Assembly (NCBI GenBank): GCA_017624235.1
Contig: JAGANL010000006.1
Coordinates: 173,524 to 237,523, forward strand
Direction: 5' to 3'
From: Lachnospiraceae bacterium
GTDB lineage: Bacteria > Bacillota > Clostridia > Lachnospirales > Lachnospiraceae
Length of the DNA stretch: 64,000 nucleotides
Part shown: positions 7,953 to 49,977 of the stretch, piece after piece
Layout of the letters: each line of letters starts with the position of its first letter
How positions within the stretch are numbered: position 1 is the stretch's first letter
Notes under the pieces: generated by a model
What the model was told of the DNA's origin: nothing
Database searches by the model: none
Seen by the model: only the letters and a program-made list of their open reading frames with translations
Position numbers and translations under genes: made by a program

Positions 7953-9095
7953 ATGACAATAAGAGGTGTGGAAAGCTCATATGCTTTTCGGATGGTGCAG
8001 GGCGGACAGAAGCGGGAAAAGGACAGCCCGGTTGGAGGTTTTCCGAAGGGATTTACAGAGCAGAAAGCAGAATCAGAAACAGAAACAGGGGAAAAGGTCT
8101 ATGCAAAAGGACGGGTCAGTTCCAAAGAGATGTATGCTTACCAGAAAGCAGCTGGTGGAAGTCCGGTTCGGGAAAGCGGACAGATGGCTTCTGGTGTCGG
8201 CGTGGAAACAGAGGTACGAAATGTGAAATATGAGGATTGTGACCGGGTCTCTGTGGACGTTTTAAACGGATATGTCATGAAGGTTCAGGTGGATGCTCCG
8301 GGACGCAGTGTTTATGTAGAGGTGAAACGTGAGGATGGGGAGACCTGCGCCTATGAGTTTGATCCCTTTCATATTCCGCGAGGGACGGAAAATACCATGG
8401 AAAAGCTGGCTCTGGAATGTTATCACAGGGCTGTGGCTGAATCGGCCGGTGCAGAGCAGTCAGAGGAGCAAAATACAGAGGAAGCCACACCGGAGGAAGA
8501 AGAGGATGGAAGCAGCGGCGGCATGAATCTGCCGGGCGCGGAAAAGGCAGAACGGTATGCCTATCATCCGAAATACATCGGAGAAATGACAAACGACGAA
8601 TGGGATGAGTTGTTAAAGAAGACGGATCAGGGTATTGAGGAAGGAAAGGAAGCCAGCCGCCTGCATAAAGAGGAGATGGAGAAGAAAGCAGAAGAAAAGA
8701 GCATTGACCGACGCAGCGCCATGCAGAAAAGGCTGGATGACACCAGAAAATATGTGCCCTATTCATGGCTTGCAGATGAAAATGGAATCGTGGAATATAA
8801 TGGTGTCATCTTTCGGTGTGATTATGAAAGCGGCGCGCTTTGCCTGGGTGATATGTCCAATAAAGAAAAGGTGCTGACTATTCCTCTGAGCGGAGGCGGG
8901 TGTCTGAAGGTAAATCGGGATAATATCGGGGATCTTTCGGCGGCAATCGGTATGTTTTCCCCGGAGGATGTCAATCGTATTTTACGTGCTCTGGCACAGG
9001 ATGCGAAGGTAAAGAAGGTGGAACAGGAGCTGGAGGAGGAAGCGGACAGTATCGGAGAGCCTGTGGAAGAACATCCGGATGAGGAAGTCGAATGA
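7953..9095 (+). CDS. Unknown acidic soluble protein linked to the ECF sigma gene
   Basis: A 380-residue protein of no family recognised. It has no signal peptide and no membrane span. Residues 1-85 are polar and probably flexible. Residues about 90-155 look like a small beta-rich domain. An acidic linker (near 170-185) and a charged helical stretch (near 225-260) follow. The last third (about 265-350) may be a second compact domain, before an acidic tail. It starts 87 bases after the sigma gene and is probably co-transcribed. By position it could regulate the sigma factor or be its target, but it lacks a ZAS or transmembrane anti-sigma signature. Confidence 0.65.
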   Translation: MTIRGVESSYAFRMVQGGQKREKDSPVGGFPKGFTEQKAESETETGEKVYAKGRVSSKEMYAYQKAAGGSPVRESGQMASGVGVETEVRNVKYEDCDRVSVDVLNGYVMKVQVDAPGRSVYVEVKREDGETCAYEFDPFHIPRGTENTMEKLALECYHRAVAESAGAEQSEEQNTEEATPEEEEDGSSGGMNLPGAEKAERYAYHPKYIGEMTNDEWDELLKKTDQGIEEGKEASRLHKEEMEKKAEEKSIDRRSAMQKRLDDTRKYVPYSWLADENGIVEYNGVIFRCDYESGALCLGDMSNKEKVLTIPLSGGGCLKVNRDNIGDLSAAIGMFSPEDVNRILRALAQDAKVKKVEQELEEEADSIGEPVEEHPDEEVE

Positions 9096-9140
9096 TTGGA
9101 TGAGCTGAATTTGATTCGTAAATTTCATTAGAAAAAATAC

Positions 9141-9169
9141 TTGACAAATGGAGTGATTCTTCATATAAT
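9141..9169 (+). promoter_or_regulatory. Consensus sigma-A promoter of the sulfur operon
   Basis: A perfect TTGACA (9141-9146), a 17-base spacer and a perfect TATAAT (9164-9169). Expected transcription start is near 9176, about 50 bases before the Cys-rich leader ORF. Confidence 0.9.
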
Positions 9170-9225
9170 GATTTCATACTTATCATACTAAATGTGTAGG
9201 AAATAAGAGAAAGGAGCGTAACGCT

Positions 9226-9327
9226 ATGAGAACAGGACATCAGGAAAATACAAAGGCTTATATGTGTTGTTGTTGTCAGGCTGTATTTATGTGTACAGTC
9301 CCGTTTGTCATGCGTTATGATACCTGA
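9226..9327 (+). CDS. 33-residue leader peptide with four consecutive Cys codons
   Basis: ATG 9226 is preceded by the strong RBS AAGGAG (9211-9216). The peptide has four TGT codons in a row at 9265-9276 (YMCCCCQA) and a fifth Cys codon at 9292. It ends with TGA at 9325-9327, 33 bases before a strong terminator. This is the architecture of a transcription-attenuation leader, in which a ribosome short of charged tRNA-Cys stalls on the Cys run. It sits between a consensus promoter and cysK, so Cys starvation would be the logical inducer. The product itself is probably not functional. Confidence 0.8.
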   Translation: MRTGHQENTKAYMCCCCQAVFMCTVPFVMRYDT

Positions 9328-9390
9328 ATGAAACACTTTCACAGAAAAGAGTGAGAGGCTGCGGGTACCATAATGGTATCCGCTTTTTTT
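9312..9390 (+). promoter_or_regulatory. Cys-responsive attenuator: terminator and competing antiterminator
   Basis: Terminator: 9361-9370 pairs with 9374-9383 (10 bp, one G-T) around loop TAA, then seven Ts (9384-9390). Competing pairing: GATACC (9319-9324) can pair with GGTATC (9375-9380), extended by GCG (9312-9314) with CGC (9381-9383), which removes the terminator 3' arm. A separate small hairpin (9336-9342 with 9351-9357) lies between. GATACC overlaps the last codons of the leader ORF. A ribosome reaching the stop would mask it and let termination occur; one stalled on the Cys run would leave it free. Pairings were found by eye. Confidence 0.75.
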
Positions 9391-9460
9391 ATACGCAGCT
9401 CGCGGAGATGAAATGAGCCGTATAACGGCAGTAAAGAAAAAGATTAAGGAGGATAAAAAC

Positions 9461-10399
9461 ATGAGTCAGATTAAGGAAAGCGCATTGGAACTGATTGGAG
9501 GGACCCCGATTCTGAAGCTGAACCGCTATGCGGAGAAGGCGGGAGTCAGAGATGCAGTAATTCTGGGAAAGCTGGAGTACCTGAATCCGGCAGGTTCTGT
9601 GAAGGATCGTATTGCATTTGCCATGATTGAGGATGCGGAGAAACAGGGAATCTTGAAGCCGGGTGCGACTATCATTGAGCCGACCTCGGGAAATACCGGA
9701 ATCGGTCTGGCAGCCGTAGCGGCAGCCAAGGGCTATAAGGCTATCCTGACACTGCCGGATACCATGAGCGTAGAGCGCCGCAATCTGCTGGCAGCCTATG
9801 GGGCTGAGCTGGTACTGACAGAAGGAGCGAAGGGAATGAAGGGAGCCATTGCAAAGGCAGAAGAGCTGCATGAATCGATTCCGGGTTCCGTGATTCTCGG
9901 ACAGTTTGTAAATCCGGCAAATCCGGCGGCACATAAGGCAACGACAGGACCGGAAATCTGGGAGCAGACGGAGGGCAAGGTCGATATCTTCGTGGCAGGT
10001 GTCGGCACAGGCGGTACGATTACCGGTGTTGGTGAGTACTTAAAGGAGAAGAATCCGAATGTGAAGATCGTGGCAGTGGAGCCGGCGACCAGTCCGGTAC
10101 TTTCACAGGGAACTTCAGGTGCACATAAGATTCAGGGAATTGGCGCAGGCTTTGTACCGGAGGTCTTAAATACCAGGGTATATGATGAGGTGCTTGCCAT
10201 TGAAAATGACGATGCGTTTGCAGAAGGAAAGGCCTTTGCAGTCAGTGAGGGTATATTAGTTGGAATTTCTTCGGGAGCCGCCTTAAAGGCAGCCACGATT
10301 CTGGCATCCAGACCGGAGAACAAGGGAAAGACCATTGTAGCATTGCTGCCGGATTCCGGTGACAGGTATCTTTCTACGCCACTGTTTAGCAATAACTGA
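9461..10399 (+). CDS. cysK: Cysteine synthase family (O-acetylserine sulfhydrylase, CysK-like)
   Basis: A 312-residue PLP fold-type II enzyme. The PLP lysine is in NPAGSVKDR (about residue 46). The substrate loop TSGNTG and the GTGGT phosphate-binding loop are present, with a C-terminal [10 protein letters not shown]. It would make cysteine from O-acetylserine and sulfide. A cystathionine beta-synthase (MccA-like) activity is a real alternative, because a cystathionine gamma-lyase/synthase lies in the same operon. Start ATG 9461 follows a perfect RBS (TAAGGAGG) and matches the family N-terminus; an in-frame ATG at 9413 is a poorer choice. Expression is probably controlled by the Cys leader upstream. 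Confidence 0.9.
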
Positions 10400-10443
10400 T
10401 CAGACCAGTCTGTGGCTTGGGAGTTGACGGAAAAGGGGAGATT

Positions 10444-10593
10444 ATGGAAAAGACATTCAAAAAGGAGCAGGTCAGTAGCCAGCTGGAGCTGATAGAGAAA
10501 CTGATTCACAGCATACAATACGGAACCATAACGATTATCATTCAGGATGGAAAAATCGTTCAAATTGATAAAAGTGAGAAATACCGAATTTAA
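10444..10593 (+). CDS. yezD: YezD-family (DUF2292) small protein
   Basis: A 49-residue protein. An N-terminal helix (to about residue 24) is followed by the characteristic YGTITIIIQDGKIVQI hairpin of DUF2292/YezD. Members are small and uncharacterised and are often next to sulfur-assimilation genes, which fits this position between cysK and the NifB-like gene. The RBS AAGGGGAG lies just upstream. No catalytic residues are apparent; a regulatory or binding role is likely. Confidence 0.75.
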   Translation: MEKTFKKEQVSSQLELIEKLIHSIQYGTITIIIQDGKIVQIDKSEKYRI

Positions 10594-10672: not shown

Positions 10673-10698
10673 AGTTTGCTGCAATTAGTTTGCTGCAA
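10671..10698 (+). repeat. Perfect 14-bp tandem duplication
   Basis: The unit TTAGTTTGCTGCAA occurs twice head to tail (10671-10684 and 10685-10698), between the intra-operon terminator and the RBS of the NifB-like gene. It changes the terminator-to-gene spacing and may be a recent replication slip. Confidence 0.85.
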
Positions 10699-10719
10699 AA
10701 AGAAGAAAGAGGAAATGAG

Positions 10720-11637
10720 ATGAGCAATAACTATGAAGCACTACAAAAGTCCCACCCCTGTTTTGGAGGGCAGAAAAACAATGTGGGGCGTATTCATCTT
10801 CCGGTCAGTCCGGGCTGTAATATTGAGTGTCGGTTCTGTGAGCGTTCAATCAATGATGAGGAAAACCGTCCCGGTGTGACATCCAGAGTTCTTTCACCGG
10901 AGGAGGCGCTTGAGGTACTGGGAAAAGCGCTGGAATTGTGTCCGGAAATCACGGTAGCCGGAATAGCGGGGCCGGGAGATACTCTGGCCAGTGATTATGC
11001 GTTGCAGACCTTCCGGTTGATTGGAAAGAAGTATCCGGGGATGCTCAAATGTATGAGTACGAATGGGCTGCTGCTGCCGGAGCGGGCGGAGGAAATCGTA
11101 GAAGTCGGAATAGATTCACTAACCGTCACAGTCAACGCGGTAGACCCGGAAATTGAGGCGAAGCTGAATCAATACATTGTGTATCACGGAAAACGTTATG
11201 AGGAGGAAGAAGCAGCCAAAATACTGATTGAAAATCAGTTAGCCGGCATCCGTAAGGTTGCAGAGGCCGGTATTACCATCAAGGTCAATACCGTGCTGGT
11301 GCCTGACATCAATGGCAGTCATATAGAAGAAATTGCCAGATGCGTAAAGGATGCGGGCGCCAGCATCTATAACATTATTCCGTTGATTCCACAGGCACAG
11401 CTAAAAGGACATCCCGCTCCTGTCTGCGCAGAGATTGATGAGGCCAGGACAAGGGCAGGAAAGTATATCGATGTATTTCGCCATTGTCAGCACTGTCGGG
11501 CGGATGCGGCAGGCGTGCCGGGCAAATCGGAATATGGGGATCAGATCTATCAGAGAATCTCTATACTTTTAGAACAGGTGTTACAGAGATGGGAACAGAG
11601 GTTGGAAAAACGTAAGAAATTAGTGGCAAGGAGGTAA
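10720..11637 (+). CDS. NifB-like radical SAM protein
   Basis: A 305-residue radical SAM enzyme strongly resembling the NifB core. It has the N-terminal SHPCF and GRIHLPVSPGCN, the [4Fe-4S]/SAM motif CNIECRFC (residues about 33-40), ENRPGV, a Cys before STNGL and the C-terminal HCQHCRADAAG. NifB makes NifB-co, the Fe-S-carbide precursor of nitrogenase cofactors. No nifHDK, nifE or nifN is in the window. The Cys that follows the radical SAM motif in the usual NifB YDC segment is not present here (SINDEENRPG). Start ATG 10720 has RBS AAAGAGG; the longer in-frame start at 10690 lacks one. It may make a related Fe-S cofactor or serve sulfur metabolism. Confidence 0.8.
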   Translation: MSNNYEALQKSHPCFGGQKNNVGRIHLPVSPGCNIECRFCERSINDEENRPGVTSRVLSPEEALEVLGKALELCPEITVAGIAGPGDTLASDYALQTFRLIGKKYPGMLKCMSTNGLLLPERAEEIVEVGIDSLTVTVNAVDPEIEAKLNQYIVYHGKRYEEEEAAKILIENQLAGIRKVAEAGITIKVNTVLVPDINGSHIEEIARCVKDAGASIYNIIPLIPQAQLKGHPAPVCAEIDEARTRAGKYIDVFRHCQHCRADAAGVPGKSEYGDQIYQRISILLEQVLQRWEQRLEKRKKLVARR

Positions 11638-11643
11638 GAAGTC

Positions 11644-12345
11644 ATGAAATGGCATTTTTTATACCGGACCTTTCTGCTGTGTTTAAAGGGTGTACCCACA
11701 ACACTGCTGATTACGATATTAACCTTAGTGTTTTCCAGTATTCCGGCCATAGGGATTGCCGTAATCAGAAGTAAGCGGGTGCCCGTGCTACAGAAGATTT
11801 GTAGTGTGTATGTGTCTTTTATCAGGGGGACACCGGCAATCGTACAGATTTATCTGCTATATAATACCCTTGCAAGCATACTGACCGTATGGTTTGAAAA
11901 AAATAATGTTTCCATTAACGTCTTTGACATTAGTCCGATTGTTTTTGCAGTAATTGTATTTACTCTAAACATTACAGCAACGATGTCGGAGGTAGTCCGG
12001 TCAGCTTTGCTAACGGTGGATAAGGGGCAGATGGAGGCAGCTGTATCCATTGGATTAAGTGAGCTGCAGGGGTTTTTACGGGTGGTATTTCCACAGGCGC
12101 TGGTGTCGGCAATACCTAATTTATGTACCCTGATTGTTAATCTGATTAAGATGACCTCGTTAGCTTTTGCTATGACTGTAAAGGATATCACAGCAATTGC
12201 TAAAATTGAGGCGGGAAGCTCCTATAATTATATAGAGGCATATCTGGATATCTTTGTCATCTATTTGATTTTGTGCATAGTGATTGAAAAAATGTTTCAG
12301 AAATTGGAGAGGAATTTGAGCAGATATAAGGCAATTGCAGATTAA
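11644..12345 (+). CDS. Polar amino-acid ABC transporter permease (lone subunit)
   Basis: A 233-residue inner-membrane permease of the His/Glu/Gln/cystine (HAAT) family. It has about five membrane segments, the FIRGTPAIVQIYL motif in the first third and the cytoplasmic EAA loop (EAAVSIGLSE, then VFPQA) that contacts the ATPase. It overlaps no gene but has an excellent RBS (AAGGAGG). The cognate solute-binding protein and ATPase are not adjacent, which is unusual. Its position in a Cys-controlled sulfur operon suggests cystine or another sulfur amino acid as substrate (inferred). Confidence 0.85.
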   Translation: MKWHFLYRTFLLCLKGVPTTLLITILTLVFSSIPAIGIAVIRSKRVPVLQKICSVYVSFIRGTPAIVQIYLLYNTLASILTVWFEKNNVSINVFDISPIVFAVIVFTLNITATMSEVVRSALLTVDKGQMEAAVSIGLSELQGFLRVVFPQALVSAIPNLCTLIVNLIKMTSLAFAMTVKDITAIAKIEAGSSYNYIEAYLDIFVIYLILCIVIEKMFQKLERNLSRYKAIAD

Positions 12346-12395: not shown

Positions 12396-13535
12396 ATGCG
12401 GGAAAAAACAAGACTGGTACATGGATATACGGGAATCGATCAAAACACGGGAGCCATCAGCTTCCCAATCTATCAGGGGGTTACCTTTGCTCATCCGGCG
12501 CTGGGAGAAACCACCAGGGGATTTGCTTATGCAAGAGCAGACAGTCCCACCAGACAGGAGCTGGAACGGACGCTTGCGCTGCTGGAGCACGGAACAAGGG
12601 CATGGGCCTTTTCCAGCGGAATGTCTGCTATTTCGGTCTTTATCAAGCTGTTTGAGCCGGGAAGCCATCTGCTCGTATCCGAGGATTTATATGGCGGCAC
12701 TTACCGTCTGTTTACGGAAATATATGGCAAATACGGATTGGAATTTGATTATGTGGATACCAGTAATCTGGAAGTGGTAAAAGCGGCTATCCGGCCGAAT
12801 ACGAAGGGAATTTTTATAGAGACGCCATCCAATCCGATGATGCACGTGACAGATATCCGTGCCGTTTCGGAGGTGATTCGGGAGGCTGGTGGTGTTGTGG
12901 CAGTGGATAATACATTCCTGTCCCCCTATTTTCAAAAGCCGCTTGATTTTGGGGCAGATATCGTCATACATAGTGCTACAAAGTATATCGGCGGTCATAA
13001 CGATGTGCTGGCAGGAGCCCTGATCGTTCGGAATGAAAAGTGGATAGAACCTATTTCCCGGCTGGCCATGTCAGAGGGAGGCACGCTGGGACCACATGAC
13101 AGCTGGCTGCTGCTTCGCAGCCTGAAGACGCTTTCCGTGCGCATGGACAGACAGCAGGAAAATGCGCTGCACCTTGTGGAATATCTGAAAAAGCATCCGA
13201 AGGTGGAAGCGGTGTATTACGTAGGTGATCCGGAGCATCCCGATTATGAAACAACGTTAAAACAGACGACTGGCTATGGCGGCATGATTTCCTTTTCACT
13301 AAAGAGCGGGGAAAAGGTGCCGGATCTTCTCAAACGGTTTAAGGTCATTACCTTTGCGGAAAGTCTTGGAGGCGTAGAAAGCCTGATCACTTATCCGATG
13401 GTACAGACGCATGGAGCGATTCCGGTGGAGATGCGGGAAAGGCTTGGAGTCAACGAAAAGCTGCTTCGGATGTCGGTCGGAATTGAGGATGTGGAGGATC
13501 TGCTGGAAGATCTGGAGCAGGCGCTTTCCATCTGA
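12396..13535 (+). CDS. Cystathionine gamma-synthase/lyase family PLP enzyme
   Basis: A 379-residue member of the Cys/Met-metabolism PLP family (fold type I). The PLP lysine is in HSATKYIGGHND. Other family landmarks are AYARADSPTR, FSSGMSAI, ETPSNPMM and SLGGVESL, and the length is typical. It could run transsulfuration forward (MetB) or break down cystathionine or homocysteine (MetC/MccB, methionine gamma-lyase); these cannot be separated by eye. Pairing with a CysK/MccA-type enzyme under Cys-limited control fits reverse transsulfuration, supplying Cys from homocysteine. Confidence 0.85.
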   Translation: MREKTRLVHGYTGIDQNTGAISFPIYQGVTFAHPALGETTRGFAYARADSPTRQELERTLALLEHGTRAWAFSSGMSAISVFIKLFEPGSHLLVSEDLYGGTYRLFTEIYGKYGLEFDYVDTSNLEVVKAAIRPNTKGIFIETPSNPMMHVTDIRAVSEVIREAGGVVAVDNTFLSPYFQKPLDFGADIVIHSATKYIGGHNDVLAGALIVRNEKWIEPISRLAMSEGGTLGPHDSWLLLRSLKTLSVRMDRQQENALHLVEYLKKHPKVEAVYYVGDPEHPDYETTLKQTTGYGGMISFSLKSGEKVPDLLKRFKVITFAESLGGVESLITYPMVQTHGAIPVEMRERLGVNEKLLRMSVGIEDVEDLLEDLEQALSI

Positions 13536-13602: not shown

Positions 13603-15126
13603 ATGGAAAAATTATTTTATCCGGATTTTTTTAATGATGTGTTCGGCCCCATTATGCAGCCGGGCTCCAGCGGCGCCTTTGCAGGAACGAGCAGAGTCGG
13701 CAGAGTGGCAGGCAGTCTGGTCAGAGGTAAATTGGAGGAGGTTCATTTTCTGTTTAATCAAAGCGACAGAGGAAGCTTTGATCGGCTGGGAAATATGATG
13801 GAGGACAGAGGATATCTGGGCGGAGCGCTTGGCTTTACGACGGATGATTACCGCCTTTTTGAGGCACATGAGATTGCAAGAGAGCAGAAAATTTCCTATG
13901 ATTTTAAGCTGAGTGAGATGGTTAACGGCTATCCGGGAAGCATTACGATCCGGGTCAAAGGGAGGAATCGGGAAGAGGGATTTTTAAAGGGCGCTTCGGT
14001 AGGAGGCGGCATGATCCGTATCTATGAGATCAACGGCTATCCCTTGAAGTGGCAGTCGGATACCTATGGTATTCTGGTAGAGGTTCAGGATAAAAAGACG
14101 ATTGGGCGGCAGAAGGAAGCGTTTGAAAGAGAACAGGGAGATGACCATATACAGACACTGTCTTTGAAAAAGAACGGAGAGGAAGAAAGCAGCGCTTATT
14201 TTATCGAACTTTCCAGAGAACCGGAGGAAGGGGATGCAGACCGGGCCTTTGCCGGGCAGCGGGTCACGATTCTTCCGGCTGTATTGCCGGTGGTAACGAC
14301 CAGACAGAAAAGGCCACAGCTTTTTCAGACCGTGGCTCAATGGCGTGAGGTAGCGGAAAAGAAGAATATTTCCTTCGTGCAGGCAGCCATAGAGTATGAA
14401 AAGGCTTCTTCCGGCTGGACGGAGGAAGAAATCTGGGCCTACTTTGAGAAAATAGCCGATATTTTTGAGAAACAGATTCATGCTCTGGAGCGCATGGGCT
14501 ATGAAAATGCAAAGGATACACCGCTCCTTCCGATCTACGGCAAGCTTTGGAAAAAGTATCTGGATACACAGAAACCAATTAGTGACACACTGACCAGGCA
14601 TATCCTGACGCATGCTTATGCGGTAAATGCCAAGCTGCCGGGTGTACTAATCGTGCCTGGGCCGATGGGAACCGGAGGTGGATATTTGTTTTCTGCGCTG
14701 GATGCGGTACGGGAGGAAAGAGGGTACAGTCATGAAAGGCTGATCGAGTCGCTGGTTGTGGCAGCAGGATTGGGCGCACTTGCCTATACGCACACGAATG
14801 CCAGCGGAGAGGTTGGATGTGTGGGAGAATCCGGTGTCTGCTGCGCTATGGCATCGGGAGCGGTCGCATGGCTGGCAGGAGGAGACGGTGTGGCAGTGGA
14901 GCGGGCGGCTGTGACTGCACCGATGTATGCTGAAATGGCTCTTGCAGGCATCGATCCGCTGATTCCGTATCATGAATGCCTGCAGGCAATCGAGAGACAT
15001 TTCAGAGCGGTGCCGAATGCCCTTTTGCGCGGCAGTGCGTGTGGATGTAACTGTACACCCACTGCAGAGCGATGCCGGGCCTTTTTGAAGGAACAGATGG
15101 CAGACAGTCTTCAGCATCAGGCATAG
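13603..15126 (+). CDS. Divergent fused L-serine dehydratase-like (Fe-S) enzyme
   Basis: A 507-residue protein with the order beta domain (1 to about 200) then alpha domain (about 225-505) of iron-sulfur L-serine dehydratases. The alpha part keeps a GEVGCVGESGVCCAMASG motif (normally GEVGCQGEVGVACSMAA) and late cysteines in GSACGCNCTP that could complete the cluster. The beta part opens with GPIMQPGSSGAFAG, where family members usually read SSSHTAG, so the conserved His-Thr is replaced. The substrate may therefore not be serine; a sulfur compound such as cysteine is an operon-based guess. RBS GGAAAGGAG. Confidence 0.65.
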   Translation: MEKLFYPDFFNDVFGPIMQPGSSGAFAGTSRVGRVAGSLVRGKLEEVHFLFNQSDRGSFDRLGNMMEDRGYLGGALGFTTDDYRLFEAHEIAREQKISYDFKLSEMVNGYPGSITIRVKGRNREEGFLKGASVGGGMIRIYEINGYPLKWQSDTYGILVEVQDKKTIGRQKEAFEREQGDDHIQTLSLKKNGEEESSAYFIELSREPEEGDADRAFAGQRVTILPAVLPVVTTRQKRPQLFQTVAQWREVAEKKNISFVQAAIEYEKASSGWTEEEIWAYFEKIADIFEKQIHALERMGYENAKDTPLLPIYGKLWKKYLDTQKPISDTLTRHILTHAYAVNAKLPGVLIVPGPMGTGGGYLFSALDAVREERGYSHERLIESLVVAAGLGALAYTHTNASGEVGCVGESGVCCAMASGAVAWLAGGDGVAVERAAVTAPMYAEMALAGIDPLIPYHECLQAIERHFRAVPNALLRGSACGCNCTPTAERCRAFLKEQMADSLQHQA

Positions 15127-15166: not shown

Positions 15167-15538
15167 ATGGGTGGAGTGTATCGGATCGGTGTGGCAACCT
15201 CGGACGGGATTGTGGTAAACGAGCATTTTGGAAGAGCGTCGCGCTTCCTGATTCTGGATATTGAGGAGGACGGTAGCATCCGCACGGTAGAGAACCGGAC
15301 AGTGACACCTGTCTGTGAGGGCGGCAATCATGATGATGAGAAGCTGGCCGAAAATGTCAAATGCCTGTCGGACTGCAGATATCTGCTGGTCAGCCGTATC
15401 GGGCAGGGAGCGGCAAATGCTTTGGAGCAGCAGGGTGTTTTGGCTTATGAGCTGCCGGGCATCATAGAGGAATCGGTACAGAAGCTGCTAAGTTACGTGA
15501 AAATTCAGAGCCTTTTAAGCTGGTCCGACAGGGAATGA
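15167..15538 (+). CDS. NifX/NafY-like dinitrogenase cofactor-binding domain protein
   Basis: A 123-residue single-domain protein of the Nitro_FeMo-Co family, with IGVATSDG near the N-terminus, the NEHFGRASRF motif (residues about 21-30) and C-terminal GQGAANALEQQGV. Relatives NifX, NafY and the NifB C-terminal domain bind NifB-co or FeMo-co; others handle unknown Fe-S cofactors. It is the last gene of the Cys-controlled operon and complements the NifB-like gene, which lacks this C-terminal domain. RBS AAAGGAAAAGAAGG. Confidence 0.75.
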   Translation: MGGVYRIGVATSDGIVVNEHFGRASRFLILDIEEDGSIRTVENRTVTPVCEGGNHDDEKLAENVKCLSDCRYLLVSRIGQGAANALEQQGVLAYELPGIIEESVQKLLSYVKIQSLLSWSDRE

Positions 15539-17771: not shown

Positions 17772-17789
17772 AATAGCAGATTTCATAAA

Positions 17790-18049
17790 ACAAACCGATG
17801 AGAAAGAGAAGTAACCGATTGGAACTTTCACAGAGAGCTGTTGGCGGTGGAAATGCAGCAAAGGGAAGAATGGCGAATGGACTTTCGAGGACAACCTGAA
17901 AGAAAAGTAGGCGTTGGCGGGAAACCGGATCCGTTATCAAACCGGCATGTATGATGGTACATGAAAGAGTGGACATTACGTCAATTTGAGTGGCACCGCG
18001 ATAATAAGATTTATTACCGTCTCAAGCATAGACTTGAGGCGGTTTTTTT
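17790..18049 (+). ncRNA. T-box riboswitch, Trp-type specifier
   Basis: The leader has the stem I landmarks GAGAAGTAA (S-turn) and AGAGAGCTG (distal bulge), a likely specifier TGG at 17878-17880 in GCGAATGGAC, and the T-box GAGTGGCACCGCG (17988-18000). TGGC in the T-box pairs with tRNA ending GCCA, so the discriminator base is G, as in tRNA-Trp. The terminator follows: 18017-18026 with 18033-18042 (10 bp), then seven Ts. Uncharged tRNA-Trp would stabilise the antiterminator and turn on the transporter genes. Specifier placement was by eye. Confidence 0.88.
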
Positions 18050-21329: not shown

Positions 21330-21653
21330 TAGAAAATGGAGCGATGAAAAAAGCTCCGTAGAATGCGATGAAAGGGATACATCGCAGGAAGATACTGGAA
21401 TACAGAGAGTCGTTGTCTGGTGAAAAACGACAGAAAGCCTTCCTGAGATATCACCCGGGAGCATCCGACTGAAAATGATAGCATTTGTGTAAAGTGATGC
21501 AAGGTGTGAGTAAGTTAGGACGTTTTCTCCACGTTACAGGAGAGGCTGTTTCAAATGACAGTACAAAGGGCCGTACATTGATTACGGTAGGCAAAGTGGT
21601 ACAACGGAAAATTCCGCCTTTGCAGTTCAGCATGGACTGCAAGGGCGTTTTTT
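21330..21653 (+). ncRNA. T-box riboswitch with probable Ile (AUC) specifier
   Basis: Stem I helix CAGGAAG pairs with CTTCCTG (3' strand 21439-21445) around a distal arm containing ACAGAGAGTC. Immediately 3' is GATATCACC, placing ATC at the specifier position (21450-21452), the same GA-N-codon-AC layout as in the Trp T-box of this window. The T-box is AAAGTGGTACAACGG (21593-21607); TGGT demands a tRNA ending ACCA, as tRNA-Ile does. The terminator is a 14-bp stem (21615-21628 with 21634-21647) and six Ts. A Tyr TAU reading is possible but less well placed. Confidence 0.82.
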
Positions 21654-49676: not shown

Positions 49677-49977
49677 CCGGAGCAAAATCCGAGGGACAGT
49701 TCCGCCGCCCGATACGCCCCAGCCTGCGTCAATAAAACGAATACTTACAGAAGGACTGTGCGTTTTCTTAATAGAGCATTTCGGTACAGTAGGGAAAAAT
49801 CGGCACGGATGCCGATTTTAGACGTCACGCGCATGGATGCGCATTGACGCCGACCCGGACGGGTATGAAGCCTTTGCTGCTCTATTTAGAAAACACCAGT
49901 CCGTATGTCGTATTCGTTTTATTGACGCAGGCTGGGGCGTATCGGGCGGCGGAACTGTCCCTCGGATTTTGCTCCGG
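49677..49977. repeat. Very long inverted repeat (67-bp perfect arms) with structured core
   Basis: Bases 49677-49743 are the exact reverse complement of 49911-49977; the match extends by one more pair (49744 with 49910). Inside, three more blocks pair in order: GGACTG (49753) with CAGTCC (49897), TTTTCT (49763) with AGAAAA (49888) and AATAGAGCA (49770) with TGCTCTATT (49878). The core holds two further hairpins, 49796-49805 with 49810-49819 (10 bp, loop CGGA) and 49824-49848. The arms are GC-richer than the A-rich left flank. No gene is needed to explain it. It may be a palindromic mobile element, an inverted duplication or a structured RNA. Confidence 0.92.

Follow-up and report, generated by a model that had tools for sequence, protein, structure and literature searches.

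The cysteine genes of Firmicutes are usually controlled by CymR, T-boxes or S-boxes. The trp, his and leu attenuators of Escherichia coli and Salmonella work by a 1:2, 2:3 and 3:4 pairing logic in which region 1 holds the control codons, and mycobacterial polycysteine leaders, in the work of Canestrari 2020, are reportedly leaderless and translational in their action. Leader attenuators for other amino acids have been described in Firmicutes, namely the ribosome-mediated Listeria Rli60/ilv leader for branched-chain amino acids, with its 13-aa leader (PMC5864092), and the His leader of hisS/hisZ in Bacilli (PMC2965389). For cysteine, actinobacterial polycysteine leader ORFs carry a Cys run near the stop codon and, in the available portion of the report, no conserved terminator (PMC1262725), and the Rhodobacterales cysS leader uORFC-8-2, with tandem Cys codons ahead of an intrinsic terminator, is predicted to act by attenuation (PMC8632094). 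The literature searched described no Cys leader from Clostridia, Lachnospiraceae included; most subscription papers lie outside that literature, and absence is thus unproven.

The window analysed here is a 64,000-nt stretch of an 80%-complete genome (51 contigs, 2.33 Mb), in which a gene without a Pfam match (7953-9095) is followed by a promoter, a palindrome, an AAAGGAG motif, a leader ORF, a terminator and, 70 bp further on, cysK (Table 1). The initial annotation had listed a consensus promoter, an ORF of 33 codons preceded by a strong ribosome-binding site (RBS), four consecutive TGT codons plus one more, and a 10-bp terminator with seven Ts, and all of these were recovered. Attenuators are recognized by a short translatable ORF with an RBS between promoter and structural gene, by clustered codons for the amino acid that the downstream genes make, by an intrinsic terminator between leader and gene, and by a mutually exclusive antiterminator; judged by sequence, each of these is present, the last with covariation. 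The locus is therefore best explained, with high confidence, as a transcription attenuator that reads the supply of Cys-tRNA(Cys). Cys-sensing attenuation, as originally proposed, remains the best-supported reading, given a conserved leader family and covarying pairings, and a response to cysteine is predicted.

Table 1. Features of the leader locus and of the genes behind it (window positions)
Feature	Position	Strand	Basis or remark
Promoter TTGACA-17-TATAAT	9141..9169	+	consensus match 12/12
CymR-like palindrome CATA-N9-TAGG	9184..9200	+	one mismatch to CCTA-N9-TAGG
Leader Shine-Dalgarno AAAGGAG	9210..9216	+	read from sequence
Region 1, leader RBS/start	9212..9233	+	pairs with 9303-9325; partner-swap test
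Leader peptide ORF, 33 aa, MRTGHQENTKAYMCCCCQAVFMCTVPFVMRYDT	9226..9327	+	design common to 20 leaders analysed
Four Cys control codons, TGT x4	9265..9276	+	sequence; relatives carry a run of Cys or a Cys-rich stretch
Fifth TGT codon	9292-9294	+	sequence
Hairpin P1 within ORF, 9279-9285 with 9294-9300	9279..9300	+	covariation
Region 2, ORF end and stop codon	9313..9326	+	pairs with region 1 or region 3
Region 3, terminator 5' arm and loop	9362..9375	+	antiterminator partner of region 2
Intrinsic terminator	9361..9390	+	stem 9361-9383, T7 9384-9390
cysK, cysteine synthase A	9461..10399	+	TIGR01139, 445 bits (cut-off 351)
DUF2292 small protein	10417..10593	+	PF10055; weak OscA likeness, NF033785 24 bits, below cut-off 85
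NifB-like radical SAM protein	10690..11637	+	TIGR01290 264 bits, below cut-off 344
Amino-acid ABC permease	11644..12345	+	best specific model cystine permease, below cut-off
Cys/Met metabolism PLP enzyme	12396..13535	+	PF01053
Serine-dehydratase-like protein	13603..15126	+	PF03313; specific models below cut-offs
Nitro_FeMo-Co (NifX-type) protein	15167..15538	+	PF02579

The genes behind cysK, judged by their spacing, presumably form one operon with it. OscA, which the DUF2292 protein weakly resembles, is a sulfur-starvation protein (NF033785). Despite the NifB-like and NifX-like genes beside cysK, no match to nitrogenase component 1 was found in the 80%-complete genome.

The window leader shares the 1:2, 2:3 and 3:4 logic of the trp, his and leu attenuators, but its region 1 is its own RBS and start codon. 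Like Rli60, it has a short leader ORF, a 2:3 antiterminator opposed to a 3:4 terminator, a terminator that exceeds the antiterminator in stability (for Rli60, -17.1 vs -10.3) and, probably, a protein regulator layered on top, which is CodY in Listeria (PMC5864092). The two differ in the amino acids and genes concerned, and a pairing between RBS and ORF end is, as far as the available portion of that paper goes, reported only for the window leader. The hisS/hisZ leader is likewise a leader attenuator of Firmicutes, for His and before other genes (PMC2965389). With uORFC-8-2 the window leader shares tandem Cys codons in an upstream ORF before an intrinsic terminator; by its description, that leader is alphaproteobacterial, precedes cysS and has two Cys codons (PMC8632094). 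Cys-codon runs in a short ORF before cysteine genes are also found in the actinobacterial leaders (PMC1262725), from which, as they are described in the available text, the window leader differs by its RBS, intrinsic terminator and antiterminator. It does not conform to the actinobacterial polycysteine type (leaderless, Cys run at the stop codon, no terminator): 56 nt separate the end of the -10 box from the ATG, and the Cys run lies 20 codons before the stop. The T-box model (RF00230) had no match at 9100-9470 when E values as high as 5 were allowed, and none of the Rfam 15 families reached its gathering score at the locus, the best being L20_leader with 17.2 bits against a gathering score of 58.7. 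The attenuation logic is a known one, in a taxon that is new for cysteine as far as searched, and it comes with a conserved RNA of its own, with the RBS strand serving as region 1 and, in many members, with a protein-type operator as well.

The terminator has 10 pairs (6 of them GC), a loop of 3 and an energy of -15.0 kcal/mol, and folding of the whole leader region (9176-9400) gives z = -3.65. The competing pairing first proposed, between the ORF end and the terminator 3' arm (9312-9324 with 9375-9383), can be drawn at -8.4 kcal/mol, but it is not the antiterminator: it can form only after the 3' arm has been made, and the ORF end pairs with the 5' arm and loop instead at -15.7 kcal/mol, in a conserved pairing. 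When growing transcripts are folded, this antiterminator forms before the 3' arm exists, through pairs 9314-9319 with 9369-9374 and 9321-9326 with 9362-9367, separated by one A.C mismatch; at transcript ends 9376-9380 an extra pair, 9313-9375, brings it to 13 pairs with the one A.C mismatch. Shuffles of region 2, which preserve single bases only, paired with region 3 as well as the native sequence in 3 of 5000 cases. The leader RBS and start codon also pair with the ORF end.

Ribosome positions were mimicked by folding constraints in four settings, with the Cys run, RBS and stop codon covered or free. The antiterminator probability was 0.99 at transcript end 9376 and 0.98 at 9380 when the Cys run and RBS were both covered, 0.47 and 0.01 when the Cys run alone was covered, and 0.81 and 0.02 when no ribosome was present; a ribosome placed at the stop codon brought it to 0.00. 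With the 3' arm fully made, the terminator has the lowest energy in 4/4 ribosome settings (0.96), and the switch must therefore be kinetic, decided before that point. Equilibrium folding does not demonstrate that a stalled ribosome by itself would suffice, the stalled state with region 1 free being no better in the model than no ribosome, and strong antitermination is predicted only if both the Cys run and the RBS are occupied.

In the proposed mechanism, RNA polymerase would initiate at the promoter, to which a CymR-type repressor probably controls access as well, and a ribosome would load onto the leader ORF. With plentiful Cys-tRNA the ribosome would reach the stop codon and cover region 2, so that the terminator would form and cysK would not be transcribed. 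With scarce Cys-tRNA it would stall on the four TGT codons and leave region 2 free to pair with region 3 before the 3' arm is made, and polymerase would continue through cysK to the sulfur genes that follow. If the leader were untranslated, or its RBS free, region 1 could pair with region 2 and termination would be favoured. Because a free RBS would capture the antiterminator strand, we also put forward, tentatively and with slightly more doubt than confidence, a family of Cys attenuators in Clostridia that spans a regulon and in which the switch would need a stalled ribosome together with a second ribosome or initiating 30S on the leader RBS. If such a two-event switch is real and is combined with a CymR-type operator, cysteine genes would respond to the cysteine pool through a protein and to the charge of tRNA(Cys) through a ribosome, with the rate of leader translation as a third input.

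In all, 20 leaders were analysed. The best promoter-like site has at most 2 mismatches in 17 of them, and a hairpin of -10 kcal/mol or lower with a T tract follows 19, compared with 15/800 shuffles of the same stretches that approximately keep dinucleotides; the exception is L145, with a hairpin of just -4.7 kcal/mol. These terminators sit 16-69 nt past the stop codon. A partner-swap test compared the fit of each ORF end to its own partner with its fit to the partners of relatives. For the antiterminator, hand-cut segments of 16 leaders gave -14.0 kcal/mol native vs -9.6 swapped, and the ten loop-side bases alone -7.3 vs -4.0 (0/20000 permutations as low in both cases); the hand-cut segments were chosen by eye with the pairing known, and rule-cut segments of 17 leaders gave a weaker result (-11.3 vs -9.4 kcal/mol, 22/20000). 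The pairing of the RBS with the ORF end gave -13.4 vs -10.7 kcal/mol (17 leaders, 0/20000). The 17-member tests omit the near duplicates L136 and L144 and the weak L130; with all 20 leaders and rule-cut segments, the values were 7/20000 for the antiterminator and 1/20000 for RBS and ORF end. The rank of the own partner was poor in some leaders, for example L145 (11/16), L140 (8/16) and L070 (6/16). Native and swapped energies of 7 leaders were not visibly separated by inspection, because the arms are shared, whereas the larger sets were separated.

Several leaders illustrate the covariation directly. In L131 the ORF end CGTATACTTTATG stands opposite the loop CATAAAGATACGG, and in L142 and L143 GTATTAG stands opposite CTAATA; in all three the sequences are new and the predicted pairing is retained. 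Across 15 sequences, hairpin P1 within the ORF has 95.2% of its cells paired and 3/7 pairs altered on both sides, values that 0/500 shuffles reached on either measure, and its position would fit a possible pause hairpin. According to the initial annotation, a Cys run and terminator/antiterminator pairing that were unconserved in relatives would have told against attenuation; as far as this can be computed, the opposite was observed, for the family is conserved, though scattered, and its pairings covary.

The occurrence of such leaders was examined by scanning upstream of cysK at 81 loci (the window and its 80 nearest cysK relatives, four of the loci offering just 206-261 nt of upstream sequence) for an ORF of 12-60 codons that follows an RBS and has 3 or more Cys within 7 residues, at most 400 nt from cysK. 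Such an ORF was present at 13/81 loci compared with 8/8100 shuffled upstreams, in which dinucleotides were approximately kept; the scan misses the leader of L089, whose RBS lies outside the pattern. Upstream of other ORFs at the same loci the count was 4/343, and 3 of these 4 are, by their terminators, Cys leaders of neighbouring genes. Many of the 80 relatives carry Lachnospiraceae names and others different deposited labels; the window itself presumably comes from a member of the Lachnospiraceae. A first scan, of 30 cysK loci including the window's, had found no run of at least 3 Cys besides the window's own, and several of the 9 loci read closely have CymR-like boxes instead; by that scan alone the finding would have looked unconserved. 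Within the genome of the window, four TGY triplets in a row occur at 20 places, and the only one inspected beside the window's (C51:63682) is on the strand opposite a long ORF.

Seven leaders, including the window's, share sequence in the form of CCC or CCCC followed by Q/H, A/T and V. A first covariance model, made from the core of these 7 (72 positions, in-ORF hairpin only), matched 10/397 genomes of the family and none in G001, the sole same-genus genome listed, and its 7 matches at E < 0.01 among the 81 cysK sources were all its own training sequences; most cysK relatives are, by this model, without a window-type leader. A second model, built from 15 sequences, matched 7/392 order genomes, 5/391 class genomes and 1/398 phylum genomes (the window's own), with the family, order and class samples overlapping, each including the window's genome, and with filters that lose weak matches. 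Two of the five class matches (L146 and L147) were rejected as false, having no RBS-led Cys ORF. Hence, the counts by rank indicate a scattered leader family that is centred on the family of the window and present in two other families of the class (G514 and G996). Members are carried by the named isolates Lacrimispora celerecrescens (L089) and L. algidixylanolytica (L088), in which the reading given here is directly testable.

The gene next after the leader is cysK in 11/20 cases. Other leaders precede an NlpA-type lipoprotein and ABC ATPase followed by JAB and ThiF/ThiS/rhodanese proteins (L128), an SBP_bac_5 protein with a cysK-like PALP and a nitrogenase-component-1-like protein (L129), a Peptidase_M20 with an NlpA-type lipoprotein further downstream (L132), an ABC ATPase with a NIL domain (L141) and an SBP_bac_3 protein (L142). 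NifB-like radical SAM proteins follow L143, about 450 nt downstream, and L144, where the assignment was made by sequence likeness; a NifH-like protein lies about 500 nt downstream of L145, and the weakest case, L130, precedes an ABC ATPase fragment. Apart from the nitrogenase-like ones, most of these genes would, from their families, fit sulfur amino-acid uptake or synthesis. The leader family may mark the genes that are treated as cysteine-supply genes, the NifB- and NifH-like ones included. Apparent NifH-like genes near cysK were also seen in L131 and L136, as read from sequence rather than profile-scanned.

The palindrome upstream of the leader raises the alternative of ordinary CymR-type repression of cysK, with the short ORF and terminator incidental. 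The initial annotation had named CymR as a usual regulator of Cys genes in Firmicutes, and a CymR-like box with at most one mismatch does lie upstream of the leader ATG in 13/20 members (1.1% of shuffles), though the copy in the window carries a mismatch. The same box occurs in 44/74 cysK upstreams without a window-type leader (6.9% of shuffles); these shuffles preserve single bases only, and the consensus, CCTA-N9-TAGG, putatively a CymR-type site, was derived from these sequences together with known CymR sites. The second cysK of the same genome (L117, G000:C26:8280-9218) has no leader, and has a promoter with a perfect CymR-like box. The sole Rrf2 match over the Pfam cut-off in that genome is a strong one and lies 4 kb from this second cysK; against the NCBIfam CymR model, the best specific one with IscR close, the protein scores 126 bits, below the cut-off of 195. 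It may bind the window palindrome. Repression would, however, leave unexplained the Cys codons, the terminator with its conserved competing pairing and the presence of the family before other genes, and as a replacement for attenuation it is very unlikely. CymR-type repression is likely true besides attenuation rather than instead of it; the leader has probably not displaced it, the two controls being superimposed, and dual control by a CymR-type protein and the attenuator is likely, not proven. The conserved family of Cys leaders in Clostridia suggests that in these bacteria, too, the ribosome reads the charge of tRNA(Cys), often beside a protein-type operator.

The leader might instead encode a functional Cys-rich micropeptide (for example, a metal- or redox-sensing one) or a small-molecule arrest peptide, and not count codons. 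In the window leader, CCCC occupies codons 14-17 and the fifth Cys is codon 23, and conservation beyond Cys is seen in the residues after the run (QAV.M or KTV.M), as a peptide function would have it. These same codons form the 5' arm of P1, however, and the conserved residues are therefore explicable by RNA pairing. The N-terminal halves of the peptides are poorly conserved, and the number and spacing of Cys vary (CCCC, CCC, CCHICPC, CRCCMSC), as codon counting would predict. Ten pairwise comparisons of positions with Cys in either leader gave 27 identical codons, 12 synonymous and 18 replaced, so that aligned Cys positions were replaced in 18/57 codon comparisons; on this evidence the Cys run is not frozen, and what is conserved appears to be the cluster of Cys codons. 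We consider a peptide function highly improbable. TGT outnumbers TGC by 67:19 in the Cys codons of 18 leaders, compared with 127:121 in the window genes (p = 1e-5), a preference that is only suggestive, the leaders of many genomes being set against one window.

Barely tenable is the idea that the leader works at translation or via Rho, the mode proposed for the Cys leaders of actinobacteria, with the hairpin a plain upstream terminator: four Cys leaders before cysK do lack a convincing terminator, but the hairpin of the window family separates the leader from the gene that follows, and covariation ties the hairpin's 5' arm and loop to the ORF end.

Attenuation of the window type is probably not the only mode in the group. 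In L036, L037, L041 and L038, RBS-led Cys-run ORFs precede cysK (e.g., MRHRKRMCCCSKGRC and MQNKKMTMRCCCRCCSTYE), and these leaders are perhaps translational or Rho-type like the actinobacterial ones. Upstream of cysK in L062, L075 and L108 lie Cys leaders of other sequence (CCMCCMCSTC, CCDMCC) with a hairpin and T tract, apparently separate designs of the same switch.

A second Cys-rich leader, with a terminator and an ACCTGA stretch that is common to it and the window-type leader, was noticed downstream of cysK in three genomes (L070:5084-5255, L088:5082-5276 and L089:5088-5247). It precedes an ORF of 326-329 aa, presumably a glutathionyl-hydroquinone reductase, and a weak model match at L089:5092-5155 (E 0.55) corresponds to it. 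Its Cys stretch reads CRLSLCC in L070, CRCCMSC in L088 and CCCCNC in L089 at the same place, the Cys residues being rearranged but kept. These rearranged Cys leaders and the leaders of other sequence before cysK suggest that Cys-leader switches arise or turn over fast.

T-box matches were found elsewhere in the window, at 17789-18027 and at 21359-21624, the latter below the Rfam gathering score. The genome as a whole has 9 such matches, 3 of them above the gathering score, and T-box-type tRNA sensing therefore coexists with the Cys leader. A TwoAYGGAY RNA (RF01731) lies at window positions 49746-49909, with 78 bits.
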